A stretch of 64,000 nucleotides of DNA, from the NCBI GenBank assembly GCA_018268085.1, contig JAFDXE010000022.1, positions 1 through 64,000 of the forward strand. Reading direction: 5' to 3'. This document shows positions 44,131 through 48,060 of this stretch, in pieces. Position numbers and translations under genes: made by a program. Numbering within the stretch: position 1 is the stretch's first letter; each line of letters opens with the position of its first letter. This stretch comes from Bacteroidota bacterium. GTDB lineage: Bacteria > Bacteroidota > Bacteroidia > Chitinophagales > Chitinophagaceae. The notes beneath the pieces are model-generated. The model was not told where the DNA came from and searched no databases. It saw only the letters and a program-made list of their open reading frames with translations.

Positions 44131-45244
44131 ACAACTTCATATTGTAACCCATGATGTTCCGTGGCCGGTTGATTTCGGCGGCGTGGTAGACCTGTTTTAT
44201 AAAATAAAAGCGTTACACGGTTATGGAATAAAAATACATCTACATTGTTTCACGGCAGGAAAACCCCGGCAAAAAGTTCTTGAAAAATATTGCGAAGCCG
44301 TTCACTATTATCATCGCAAAACAGGATTAAAAGGCATCGCTTACGGTATTCCTTATATCGTACAAAGCAGATCCGATTCCAGGCTTTTAGAGAATTTAAA
44401 CAAAGACAATTATCCTGTTTTGCTTGAAGGCATTCATTGCACGTATTTTTTACAACAAAATAAATTGCAGCACAGAAAAGTTTTTGTTCGCCTGCACAAT
44501 GTTGAATTTAAATACTATCATCAGCTTGCAGTTCATGAAACCAACCTGTTAAGGAAATTTTATTTTAAAAGAGAAAGCAGGTTATTAAAAAAATATGAAG
44601 CGCAACTGGCAGCGAAAGCAAAATTCCTGGCGGTTAGCAAAGAAGATGAAGCCTGTTATAAAAATGAATTGCAGGCGAAAGATGTACAGTTCCTTCCCGT
44701 ATTTCTTCCCTGGGATGAATCTGATTGCAAAACGGGCCGTGGAGAATATTGTCTCTACCATGGCAATCTATCCATCAATGAGAATGAAAATGCAGTACAC
44801 TGGTTGTTAACGGAAGTATTTAATCAGTCGGCGGTTCCATTGATCATAGCCGGCAAAGATCCTTCGCCTGCACTTACTGCCGTTATTGCAAAAGCCAGAA
44901 ACGCAAAACTTATTGCCAATCCATCTGAAGCAGTAATACAGCAACTGATCCGGGAGGCGCACATTAATGTATTGCCCTCTTTCAATATTACCGGTGTAAA
45001 ACTAAAATTATTAAATGCATTGTTTAATGGAAGACATTGCCTGGTAAATAACAAAGCTGCCGAGGGTTCTGAAGTAGAACAGCTTTGTACAATAGCCGAA
45101 ACCTCCGCTGAGTGGAAGCATGCAATTACAAACTTGTTTAATGAAGCATTCACAGAAGAAAAAATCCGGCAACGAATCACCGGATTAAAAGAGATATATA
45201 ACACAGATAAAAATACACAGAAGCTTATTGCATGGATATACTAA
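44123..45244 (+). CDS. Glycosyltransferase (GT-B)
   Basis: A 373-residue glycosyltransferase-like protein. It starts at TTG 44123, overlapping the preceding gene by 8 bp (DKQLHIVTHDVPWPVDFGGVVDLFYKIKALHGYG is a typical GT-B start with a Gly-rich turn). The C-terminal half has YCLYHGNLSINENENAVHWLL, PLIIAGKDPS, and the nucleotide-sugar-binding NVLPSFNITGVKLKLLNALFNGRHCLVNN. The 3' end overlaps the convergent ftsE-like gene by 20 bp. Probably the last step gene of the small glycan operon. Confidence 0.83.
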   Translation: MDKQLHIVTHDVPWPVDFGGVVDLFYKIKALHGYGIKIHLHCFTAGKPRQKVLEKYCEAVHYYHRKTGLKGIAYGIPYIVQSRSDSRLLENLNKDNYPVLLEGIHCTYFLQQNKLQHRKVFVRLHNVEFKYYHQLAVHETNLLRKFYFKRESRLLKKYEAQLAAKAKFLAVSKEDEACYKNELQAKDVQFLPVFLPWDESDCKTGRGEYCLYHGNLSINENENAVHWLLTEVFNQSAVPLIIAGKDPSPALTAVIAKARNAKLIANPSEAVIQQLIREAHINVLPSFNITGVKLKLLNALFNGRHCLVNNKAAEGSEVEQLCTIAETSAEWKHAITNLFNEAFTEEKIRQRITGLKEIYNTDKNTQKLIAWIY

Positions 45245-45914
45245 CGTTATCCCACACCTTGCCACTCTCTGTTTTAATCGTTCGGGCAGGAAATTTATTG
45301 ATCACCATATAGTCATGCGTAGCCATTACAATAGATGTGTTGTAATCCTTACTGATGTGAAATAACAGTTGCATAATCTCATCACTTGTTTCAGGATCGA
45401 GGTTACCTGTAGGTTCATCTGCTAAAATCAGTTTGGGAGAATTAAGTAAAGCCCTTGCAATATCCACACGCTGCTGTTCTCCCCCGCTTAATTCAAACGG
45501 CATTTTAAATCCTTTTGTTTTTAAACCCACTTTATCCAAAACATCAGCAATTTTTTCGTCCATTAGTTTTTCATCTTTCCACCCGGTTGCTTTTAAAACA
45601 AATTTCAGGTTATCATTCACATTCCTGTCTGTCAGCAATTGAAATTCCTGGAACACAACGCCAAGGTTACGGCGCAGGAAAGGAACAGATTTCCAGGTGA
45701 GTTCCCTGAGATTGTGCCCTGCAACCCAACCTTCACCATCTTTTAATTCAAGATCGCCATATAAAGTTTTTAAAAGGCTGCTCTTACCCGTACCGGTTTT
45801 TCCTACGAGGTACACAAACTCCCCTTTATCAACTGATATATCTACATTACTCAAAATGAGATTACCGCTCTGGTAAATATTTACATTCTTTAATTCTATG
45901 ATGGATTGCGACAT
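45225..45914 (-). CDS. ftsE: ABC transporter ATP-binding protein, FtsE-like
   Basis: A 229-residue ATPase. Walker [10 protein letters not shown] (about 38-46), Q-loop VFQEFQLL, signature [15 protein letters not shown], Walker [13 protein letters not shown] and switch His in ATHDYMV are all intact. FtsE with FtsX controls wall hydrolases at division; the sequence ([37 protein letters not shown]) fits FtsE, but FtsX is not adjacent, so it could also belong to a LolD/MacB-like group. A TATTTTTG box is upstream. Confidence 0.85.
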
Positions 45915-46069: not shown

Positions 46070-46108
46070 AAAACTAAATTTTTAGTTTTAAAACTAATTT
46101 TATAGTTT
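46070..46108 (+). promoter_or_regulatory. Two BlaI-type operators
   Basis: AAAACTAAA-TT-TTTAGTTTT (46070-46089) is a perfect 9-bp inverted repeat. A second, looser repeat, AAACTA-N6-TAGTTT (46091-46096 / 46103-46108), follows. Their centres (46079.5 and 46099.5) are 20 bp apart, about two helical turns. They lie 20 bp before the BlaI start codon. BlaI/MecI dimers bind such palindromes, so this is a probable autoregulatory site. Confidence 0.75.
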
Positions 46109-46127
46109 AGCGTTAAAATCAAATAGT

Positions 46128-46487
46128 ATGGCAAAGAATTTAACGAGGGCTGAAGAACAGATCATGCAGGTGATATGGAAATTACACAAGGCTTTTTTAC
46201 GGGAAATCATTGATGCGCTGCCCAATCCAAAACCACATAGCAACACCGTTGCCACAATTTTGAAAATACTCACAGAGAAAGAATTTATCGGCATAGAAGT
46301 TTTTGGAAGAATGCACCGGTATTTCCCGTTAATTTCAAAAGAAGCATATAGTAAATCTTCCATGAAAAATTTTGTAAAAGGTTATTTCGATGGGAGTTTC
46401 AGCAACGCCGTTTCATTTATGGTAAAGGAAAATAACCTGAGCATTGAAGATCTTGAATTATTGCTAAAACAATTAAAGAAAAAATAA
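46128..46487 (+). CDS. BlaI/MecI/CopY family transcriptional repressor
   Basis: A 119-residue winged-helix repressor. The DNA-binding part is at about 1-75 (LTRAEEQIMQVIWKLHKAFLREIIDALP, HSNTVATILKILTEKEFIGIEVFGRMHRYFP), and a dimerisation helix region follows (FVKGYFDGSFSNAVSFMVKENNLSIEDLELLLKQLKKK), as in BlaI. In the classic system a BlaR1 sensor protease triggers cleavage of BlaI; here the next gene, 9 bp downstream, is a BlaR1/M56-like protein, so the two form a sensor-repressor pair. Two palindromes just upstream suggest autoregulation. Confidence 0.95.
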   Translation: MAKNLTRAEEQIMQVIWKLHKAFLREIIDALPNPKPHSNTVATILKILTEKEFIGIEVFGRMHRYFPLISKEAYSKSSMKNFVKGYFDGSFSNAVSFMVKENNLSIEDLELLLKQLKKK

Positions 46488-46496
46488 GTATCCACT

Positions 46497-47993
46497 ATGA
46501 TTACTTTTGCCAGTTATTTATTTAAGGTATCAATATGCAGTGCGCTATTGATGTTATATTATTTTATTTTCCTCCGGAATAAAACGTATCACCAGTACAA
46601 CCGTGCATATCTTTTATTTACAACAATCCTGTCGGCTATACTTCCCTTAATAACGATCAATCTGGTTCAATATCCGGAAAGCCAATCGCAGGTACTGACA
46701 AAGGCACTGCAAACCATTTCTGTGGGCGACCGTTACTTCGATCAAATTGCCCCGGTAGAAAGAACAGCTTTTTTCACTACGAACCATATTATTTTGTTTG
46801 CATTTTGTGTGATTTCATTTGTGATGTTGTTAAAAACAGTCGCTGGCCTTTTCCGAATTTATGCGATAAAAAAAACTTCAGAGGTTTTGATAGTAAAGGG
46901 TGTAAAAATTAATTTGACACATGACGAAAGGGCGCCCTTCTCATTTTTAAACAGTATTTTCTGGAATAAAAGAATAAACATTCATTCTGAAGAAGGACAA
47001 AGGATACTGAATCATGAACTTACCCATGTTCAACAAAATCATTCAGTGGATAAACTTTATATAGAGCTCCTGATTGTATTGTTTTGGATAAACCCCGTAA
47101 TGTGGTTTATCAAAAAAGAATTGGCTATGATTCATGAATTCATAGCTGATGGCAAATCAACAGGCGACGCAGGTAAGGCTGCATTTGCCCGTATGATCCT
47201 GCAATCTTACTTCCCCGGAAAATCATTTACACTCACAAATAATTTCTTTCATTCATCCATAAAAAGACGATTAACTATGATTACAAAATCAAAAAAGAAC
47301 AGCGGATACATTGCCCGGCTGTTTGTACTACCCCTTTTCATTTTAGTAATGGCAGCATTTTCTATTAAAACGATTTCAGTAAATAAAAAGAAATGGGCAG
47401 GTTTACACTCCGATAAGAAAATAACCGTTGTAATTGATGCTGGTCATGGCGGTTCCGACAATGGCGCTTATGATGCACTGGGACTTCCGGAAAAAGAACT
47501 TACTATTGCTTATGCGCATTCAATAAAAGCAGCTAACAGTGATAAAAATATTAATATAGTATTTACCAGGGAAGCTGATGAATTTAAGAGTCCCCAGGAG
47601 CGATCAGCCTTCATCAACAATATTTCTCCAGACCTTTTGATCTCTATTCATTTCAATAATTCTCCTGACGAAAACATGTTCACGAAAAGGGGCATGGAAG
47701 TGATAATTGCCCGGGACGAATTCCAAAATGCTGCACAAAGTAAACTTCTTGCTTCTTCTGTAATCCAAACTTTTACCGGGAATTTTGGATTGCCTGTTAA
47801 CAGTAATCCAATGCAACAACAAGGAAATATAAAAATATTACAGGAGAGTAAATGTGCGGCTGTTTTAATTGAGGCCGGGTATATGTCGAACAAGGATGAT
47901 ATTACCTTTCTTCGTTCCGACAAGGCTAAAGAACTATTTGCAGATAATATCCTGAAATCAATTACACAATTTATATATAGCCGAAAGAACTAA
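46497..47993 (+). CDS. BlaR1-like M56 metallopeptidase fused to N-acetylmuramoyl-L-alanine amidase
   Basis: A 498-residue membrane protein. Residues 1-295 are M56/BlaR1-like: hydrophobic helices at about 6-26, 37-57 and 96-118, then the zinc motif HELTH (173-177) and the downstream EFIAD Glu214, a helix near 187-205, and a last helix 273-291. Residues 307-495 are an Amidase_3 domain with the four expected residues: His317 (DAGHGGSDNGA), Glu332 (LPEKELT), His384 (SIHFN) and Glu459 (LIEAGYMSN). The amidase comes after the final helix, so it should lie in the periplasm, where it could cut the peptide stem from muramic acid. BlaR1 usually ends in a penicillin-sensing domain; here an enzyme replaces it. 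The gene is co-transcribed with blaI-like 46128. A hairpin terminator follows. Confidence 0.93.
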   Translation: MITFASYLFKVSICSALLMLYYFIFLRNKTYHQYNRAYLLFTTILSAILPLITINLVQYPESQSQVLTKALQTISVGDRYFDQIAPVERTAFFTTNHIILFAFCVISFVMLLKTVAGLFRIYAIKKTSEVLIVKGVKINLTHDERAPFSFLNSIFWNKRINIHSEEGQRILNHELTHVQQNHSVDKLYIELLIVLFWINPVMWFIKKELAMIHEFIADGKSTGDAGKAAFARMILQSYFPGKSFTLTNNFFHSSIKRRLTMITKSKKNSGYIARLFVLPLFILVMAAFSIKTISVNKKKWAGLHSDKKITVVIDAGHGGSDNGAYDALGLPEKELTIAYAHSIKAANSDKNINIVFTREADEFKSPQERSAFINNISPDLLISIHFNNSPDENMFTKRGMEVIIARDEFQNAAQSKLLASSVIQTFTGNFGLPVNSNPMQQQGNIKILQESKCAAVLIEAGYMSNKDDITFLRSDKAKELFADNILKSITQFIYSRKN

Positions 47994-48027: not shown

Positions 48028-48060
48028 GCCTTACTTCCTTTTTATTTATGGAAGTAAGGC
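48028..48060 (+). terminator. Terminator of the M56-amidase gene
   Basis: An 11-bp stem GCCTTACTTCC / GGAAGTAAGGC has an 11-nt loop and is followed by TTTCTTCTTAAT on the plus strand. It also separates this gene from the convergent purM. Confidence 0.85.

Follow-up and report, generated by a model that had tools for sequence, protein, structure and literature searches.

A BlaR1-like M56 protease carrying a zinc amidase domain in blaI operons of the Chitinophagaceae

A BlaI/MecI-family repressor and, directly behind it, one protein that joins a BlaR1-like M56 zinc protease to a complete Amidase_3 domain are encoded in a 64,000-nucleotide stretch of DNA (here the window) from a Bacteroidota bacterium of the family Chitinophagaceae. 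An earlier note on this DNA, made from its sequence, had described such a chain, and the open reading frames, the Pfam domains and their order proved to be as it stated. The architecture recurs in relatives of the window genome. Our favoured reading, to which we give an even chance, is a BlaR1-type self-regulating switch that has a peptidoglycan-binding amidase as its ectodomain, which in the window protein probably also cuts. The features of the locus are collected in Table 1.

Table 1 Features of the blaI-M56-amidase locus (positions in the window; residues of the encoded proteins)
Feature	Position	Strand	Basis
Operator 1, AAACTAAATTTTTAGTTT, BlaI-type palindrome	46071..46088	.	2 matches in window, 0.06 expected
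Operator 2, AAACTAATTTTATAGTTT, BlaI-type palindrome	46091..46108	.	Centre 20 bp downstream of operator 1
blaI, BlaI/MecI-family repressor, 119 aa	46128..46487	+	PF03965 100.9 bits; matches MecI structures
Putative BlaI cleavage site S96-F97	46413..46418	+	Conservation and MecI alignment; cleavage inferred
M56-Amidase_3 fusion protein, 498 aa	46497..47993	+	Pfam domains, AlphaFold2 model, fold matches
BlaR1-like transmembrane and M56 zinc-protease part, residues 1-292	46497..47372	+	BlaR1 alignment, fold match
HELTH, M56 HExxH zinc motif, residues 173-177	47013..47027	+	H173, E174, H177 invariant in 64/64 fusions
E214xxxD218, gluzincin third zinc ligand motif	47136..47150	+	Invariant in 64/64; matches BlaR1 E242xxxD
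N249-F250, at BlaR1 autocleavage position Ser283-Phe284	47241..47246	+	8EXP alignment; Phe in 62/64; cleavage inferred
Amidase_3 ectodomain (predicted), residues 305-493	47409..47975	+	PF01520 132 bits; fold match 4RN7
H317, amidase zinc ligand	47445..47447	+	64/64 fusions
E332, amidase zinc ligand	47490..47492	+	64/64 fusions
H385, amidase zinc ligand	47649..47651	+	64/64 fusions
E459, catalytic Glu, present in window protein	47871..47873	+	56/63 fusions; replaced in 7
Hairpin terminator between convergent genes	48028..48060	+	-20.8 kcal/mol for 86-base stretch, z -4.0

The operon and its operators

Only nine bases separate the end of blaI from the start of the fusion gene. The Penicillinase_R profile (PF03965) matches BlaI over its full length (100.9 bits, profile positions 1-114 of 115), and in the fusion protein Pfam places Peptidase_M56 at residues 163-262 (40.9 bits) and Amidase_3 (PF01520) at residues 311-490 (132.1 bits, profile positions 1-173 of 174). 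An eCIS_core Pfam match in the same protein was treated as spurious since it overlaps the HExxH motif, and PADLOC gave no match to anti-phage defence. Within the putative BlaI cleavage site, Ser is found in 47 of 47 relatives and Phe in 41 of 47. In the MecI alignment the site is offset by one residue from N101-F102, the cleavage site used for that comparison (PMC9834060). The terminator that the earlier note had assigned to the operon is there, as a hairpin with an 11-bp stem followed by a T-rich run (48028-48060, z -4.0), but the hairpin lies between convergent genes and may serve both.

Two palindromes 20 bp apart had also been proposed, and they were confirmed at 46071-46088 and 46091-46108 with a centre spacing of 20 bp; shuffled windows held 0.06 matches to the operator pattern on average, and none held two. 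Paired operators were present at all 31 fusion operons inspected. At 30 of these loci at least two CTA-N6-TAG-centred sites, nearly all of the form AACTA-N6-TAGTT, lie within 170 bp of blaI, and at the remaining one (L105) the pair precedes a permease gene upstream of blaI, as it does in its sister L250. In these two sister genomes a gene for an ADOP/MacB-type permease stands between the operator pair and blaI (L250 3042-5435, L105 3320-5713), giving the operon order permease-blaI-M56-amidase. The strict operator-pair pattern was found in 129 of the 296 family genomes and the reversed-pattern control in 3; when operator-pair loci were fetched, 29 of 30 had a blaI-M56 operon adjoining.

The strict site occurs four times in the window genome, twice at the locus and twice inside coding sequences, a count of exact sites that degenerate operators elsewhere would escape. 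Further regulon members in that genome were rejected, as the other two exact matches are the ones within coding sequences. Since the only non-coding operators here are those of the locus, and 29 of 30 pairs adjoin blaI-M56 operons, the main regulated product would be the operon itself; to judge from these site counts, it seems to regulate chiefly itself in the window genome. A second blaI-M56 pair of that genome (G000 contig C13, L087 6717-8613) has no amidase, and no AACTA-N6-TAGTT operator was seen there.

That the operon is essentially the sole target found speaks for the main rival of our reading, under which the ectodomain would be the output. The amidase would be a regulated effector and not a sensor: BlaI and the M56 part would read an envelope signal through the membrane helices or through the loop EL1, and the switch would carry the fused amidase and set its dose, so that it trims membrane-near peptidoglycan as S. 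aureus LytH does with its membrane partner ActH. We regard this account as rather unlikely, one point against it being that the ectodomain of BlaR1 is a sensor.

The protease and amidase halves

A profile of the M56 part aligned with residues 15-316 of BlaR1 (8EXP, E 6e-10), and the alignment pairs the HExxH and ExxxD motifs of the two proteins as well as the BlaR1 autocleavage residue Phe284 with F250. The BlaR1 counterpart of E214xxxD218 is the E242xxxD motif (PMC9834060). An AlphaFold2 model of the fusion protein (14 rows, mean pLDDT 79, pTM 0.52) matched S. aureus BlaR1 (8EXS) over residues 4-253 (Z 14.9, 216 residues, rmsd 4.3); its pTM is low and hence the relative placement of the M56 and amidase halves is not given by the model. 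From homology to BlaR1 the M56 protein would be expected to cleave both itself and BlaI, and the BlaI S96-F97 site and loop residue F250 look consistent with BlaR1 specificity (PMC9834060).

Hydrophobic segments of the fusion protein were located at residues 8-26, 39-57, 98-116 and 272-290, plus 184-205, and immediately ahead of the last helix there are seven Lys or Arg and no acidic residues. BlaR1 has both termini outside and its protease site toward the cytoplasm (PMC9834060). Because the hydrophobic segments and the charge distribution agree with that topology, the amidase is placed outside. On the BlaR1 model it would lie some 12-15 residues past the last helix, outside the inner membrane. 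The earlier note had put it there, and the BlaR1 alignment, the fold match and the charge distribution all support this predicted placement.

In another rival reading, proteolysis past the last helix, by signal peptidase, would free the amidase into the periplasm and make the receptor a regulated storage form of the enzyme. A putative signal-peptidase site follows the last helix of BlaR1, which is considered to be clipped there (PMC9834060). However, autocleavage at F250 precedes the last helix and would not alone free the amidase, and many relatives have further domains behind the amidase, so that we consider shedding distinctly improbable.

The C-terminus of the fusion protein is Amidase_3 and not a penicillin-binding sensor, and the NCBIfam model blaR1_generic scored only 24.8 bits against a cut-off of 400. 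As the penicillin sensor is one defining feature of BlaR1, the protein is to be named BlaR1-like. The earlier note was right to remark on this absence, but the weight of the remark is reduced since it is common among M56 proteins of the phylum; those scanned often end in TonB_C or Plug-like domains.

Residues 306-497 of the model matched the zinc amidase 4RN7 closely (Z 28.0, rmsd 1.5, 184 residues), and PDB entries 7TJ4 and 7RAG, from the LytH-ActH and CwlD-GerS systems, were among the fold matches. The match to LytH, which depends on a transmembrane partner (PMC8496864), is a further point for the amidase as effector. Three of the four active-site residues named in the earlier note (H317, E332 and E459) are present as given, whereas its His384 was off by one, the actual residue being H385. 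The zinc site is retained, with H317, E332 and H385 invariant in 64 fusions. The corresponding residues of the C. difficile amidase CwlD are His49, Glu65 and His133, which bind zinc, and Glu199, which is catalytic (PMC8496864). Judged by these residues, the amidase of the window protein is probably still catalytic.

Conservation and an exchangeable outer part

The protease residues H173, E174, H177, E214 and D218 and the three amidase zinc ligands do not vary across the 64 fusions. The catalytic Glu is replaced in seven of the 63 fusions in which that region is present (by Q, Q, H, G, N, N and A), and these proteins keep their zinc ligands. The two Asn cases are sisters, which reduces the losses to at most six events. 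By comparison, 73 of 73 free-standing amidases, drawn from the loci examined, retain all four residues (Fisher p 0.004, a guide only as the sequences are related). Values of dN/dS were about 0.06-0.27 in both the M56 and the amidase parts wherever computable, several dS values being near saturation, and the amidase of the sister pair having Asn at the Glu position gave 0.09, indicative of purifying selection. Since Glu was lost in 7 of 63 fusions and in none of 73 free-standing enzymes, the comparison indicates that in some lineages the amidase domain is maintained for more than catalysis. The proposal of the earlier note that the amidase serves as a ligand-binding domain gains support from these relatives, and a link to peptidoglycan, as that note implied, is likely. 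That the window protein detects wall damage, or that its cutting of the wall produces the inducing signal, are further proposals of the note.

An enzyme that is effector only should not lose its Glu yet stay under purifying selection, as the sister pair tested does, with the zinc ligands kept in all seven Glu-less fusions. Conversely, retention of the Glu in most fusions (56 of 63) is what is expected of an enzyme; it favours the effector account and counts against the sensor reading that we prefer.

A link between Glu loss and operators at other genes was considered and dropped: it was seen in two related genomes, which are too few, and the other Glu-loss genomes with listed operator pairs had no operators at other genes. 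One of the two (G299, His at the Glu position) has a second operator pair without blaI nearby (L247 2984-3019); this pair lies 12 bp ahead of a gene for an outer-membrane beta-barrel protein, a candidate target in trans. In the other (G088, Gln at that position) the only strict pair (L252 3039-3074) lies upstream of a thioredoxin/AhpC-TSA gene and on a different contig from the blaI-M56 locus.

The fusion, or a piece spanning both parts, was found in 15 of the 36 genomes of the genus group. Among the matches listed for the 296 family genomes, an even draw, a hand count gave at least 82 rows spanning both parts, from about 80 genomes. The search for M56 with Amidase_3 that the earlier note had called for thus returned a recurrent architecture, and this recurrence in at least about 80 family genomes rules out a chance fusion or assembly error. 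Outside the genus the fusion occurs, for example, in Longitalea arenae and, at 29% identity, in Flavobacterium denitrificans. In a phylum-wide draw of 345 genomes nearly all M56 relatives matched only about residues 1-300; full fusions were few and came mainly from the family of the window genome.

At about 570-1120 aa, most fusion relatives exceed the window protein in length, and in those scanned the amidase is followed by Plug-like, GldM_3rd or TonB_C segments. Truncation by mutation in the window genome was rejected, G094 of the same genus and at least eight other genomes having compact proteins of about 482-492 aa. Given these compact relatives and the terminator directly after the gene, the short form looks genuine, and it may have descended by loss of a Plug/TonB_C tail. 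In all complete fusion loci examined on that side, blaI is directly upstream, except in L104, where a second M56 gene lies between blaI and the fusion. In L104 (5105-8308) and L146 (4992-8255) a single blaI is followed by two M56 genes in tandem, of which one has the amidase and the other TonB_C.

Other relatives lack the amidase but have segments of the Plug-like, GldM_3rd or TonB_C kinds after the M56 part. Proteins with and without the amidase occupy one conserved chromosomal slot, which has glycosyltransferase and FtsE-like genes to one side of it and purM-like and ribF genes to the other. In the window the FtsE-like ABC ATPase gene of this slot (45225-45914) is divergent from blaI; its best NCBIfam match is FtsE, at 229.8 bits under the cut-off of 264.85. 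In E. coli, FtsEX controls amidases. One M56 protein in the same slot (L253 3362-5311) ends in Por_Secre_tail, a type IX secretion sorting domain that is odd for a membrane receptor.

Close sisters differ by the amidase. From the protein of L143 about 200 residues, the amidase, are cleanly absent; it is otherwise 70% identical to that of L037 over residues 1-293 and 48% identical in the segment that follows the amidase. A second such sister pair, L052 and L142, shares 76% identity in the M56 part. A tree built from the M56 part calls for 18 changes of the amidase label, at least 10 of them on well-supported branches; it was made by a quick method and has some long branches, and gain is indistinguishable from loss on it. 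Read from these alignments and this tree, the amidase is a cassette that has been repeatedly gained or lost. The EL1 loop, which blocks the sensor in BlaR1, was considered as an amidase-specific plug; this was unsupported, as EL1 is still recognizable in amidase-free sisters, even if it is less conserved there than the remainder of the M56 part. Its retention in these sisters also counts against the sensor reading.

Such turnover bears on two alternatives. The fusion might have arisen passively, as domains shuffle promiscuously behind M56, and its two parts might do nothing together; both the variability of M56 C-termini in the phylum (TonB_C, Plug, GldM_3rd, a sorting tail) and the ten or more well-supported changes of the amidase label are in keeping with this. 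Its maintenance in at least about 80 of 296 family genomes, the purifying selection on both domains and the unvarying zinc ligands argue otherwise, and we find a mere by-product very improbable indeed. The effector account has its best support here, since the M56 part and the slot are unchanged where the amidase cassette is missing. Sisters that lack the amidase and share the M56 part, the operators and the slot complicate the sensor idea. As they are 70-76% identical in the M56 part and sit in the same slot, the switch may work without the amidase, and the stimulus may be read elsewhere.

A proposed switch and related systems

In the self-regulating switch that we favour, BlaI would occupy the two operators and repress its own operon. 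The protease site of the M56 part would face the cytoplasm, and a short tether would hold the amidase outside the inner membrane, where it would engage a peptidoglycan ligand, either nascent uncrosslinked strands or released muropeptides. Movement induced by the ligand would be transmitted via the membrane helices and would release the protease site from its own autocleavage loop. The freed protease would cut BlaI, and expression of the operon would yield more of the amidase-bearing receptor. As all catalytic residues are kept in the window protein, its amidase probably acts as sensor and effector at once. For the ligand, for the direction of signalling and for the amidase activity we can offer proposals only. 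A BlaI repressor responsive to a peptidoglycan dipeptide is known (PMC3305447), a precedent by which the repressor itself might receive a further input. More broadly, and only tentatively given that we think it doubtful, the amidase may have been repeatedly recruited as a BlaR1-type ectodomain, several lineages having become pure peptidoglycan receptors, with the zinc site but no longer the catalytic Glu, and the catalytic members, the window protein among them, sensing their own substrate and controlling their own synthesis by repressor proteolysis.

The system resembles BlaR1/BlaI and MecR1/MecI of Staphylococcus and Bacillus in its repressor family, M56 gluzincin motifs, autocleavage-loop Phe, predicted N-out/C-out topology and ectodomain tethered behind the last helix (PMC9834060). 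It differs in having a zinc amidase in place of the penicillin sensor and in an operon that lacks a beta-lactamase or PBP2a gene and appears mainly self-controlling. Those M56 proteins of the Bacteroidota that end in TonB_C or Plug-like domains share the M56 part, the kind of operator and often the slot, and are up to 76% identical to amidase-bearing sisters but lack the amidase; no functional report on them was found in the literature searched. LytH-ActH of S. aureus and CwlD-GerS of C. difficile likewise tie an Amidase_3 enzyme to a membrane or membrane-anchored partner (PMC8496864), but as separate chains and without an M56 protease or BlaI repressor. Nearest to the fusion among the papers searched is a database survey (PMC9662197) noting proteins in which M56 is combined with a peptidoglycan hydrolase domain of type M23. 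Those proteins have M23 instead of Amidase_3, the role of M56 in them is unstudied, and proteins with a second catalytic domain make up under 1% of M23 entries (PMC9662197). No paper on M56 or BlaR1 fused to Amidase_3 was found in a search that covered few subscription papers.

The known role of BlaR1 and MecR1 is that of a beta-lactam alarm. Here the layout of the staphylococcal penicillin alarm recurs in many relatives with a wall-cutting enzyme domain at its predicted outer end, which points to a protease-repressor core that serves generally as a platform for envelope sensing and whose outer parts can be exchanged. The fusions offer a testable natural case of an enzyme turned receptor, and could give a Gram-negative phylum a route from the state of the wall to gene expression that needs neither a two-component system nor a sigma factor.
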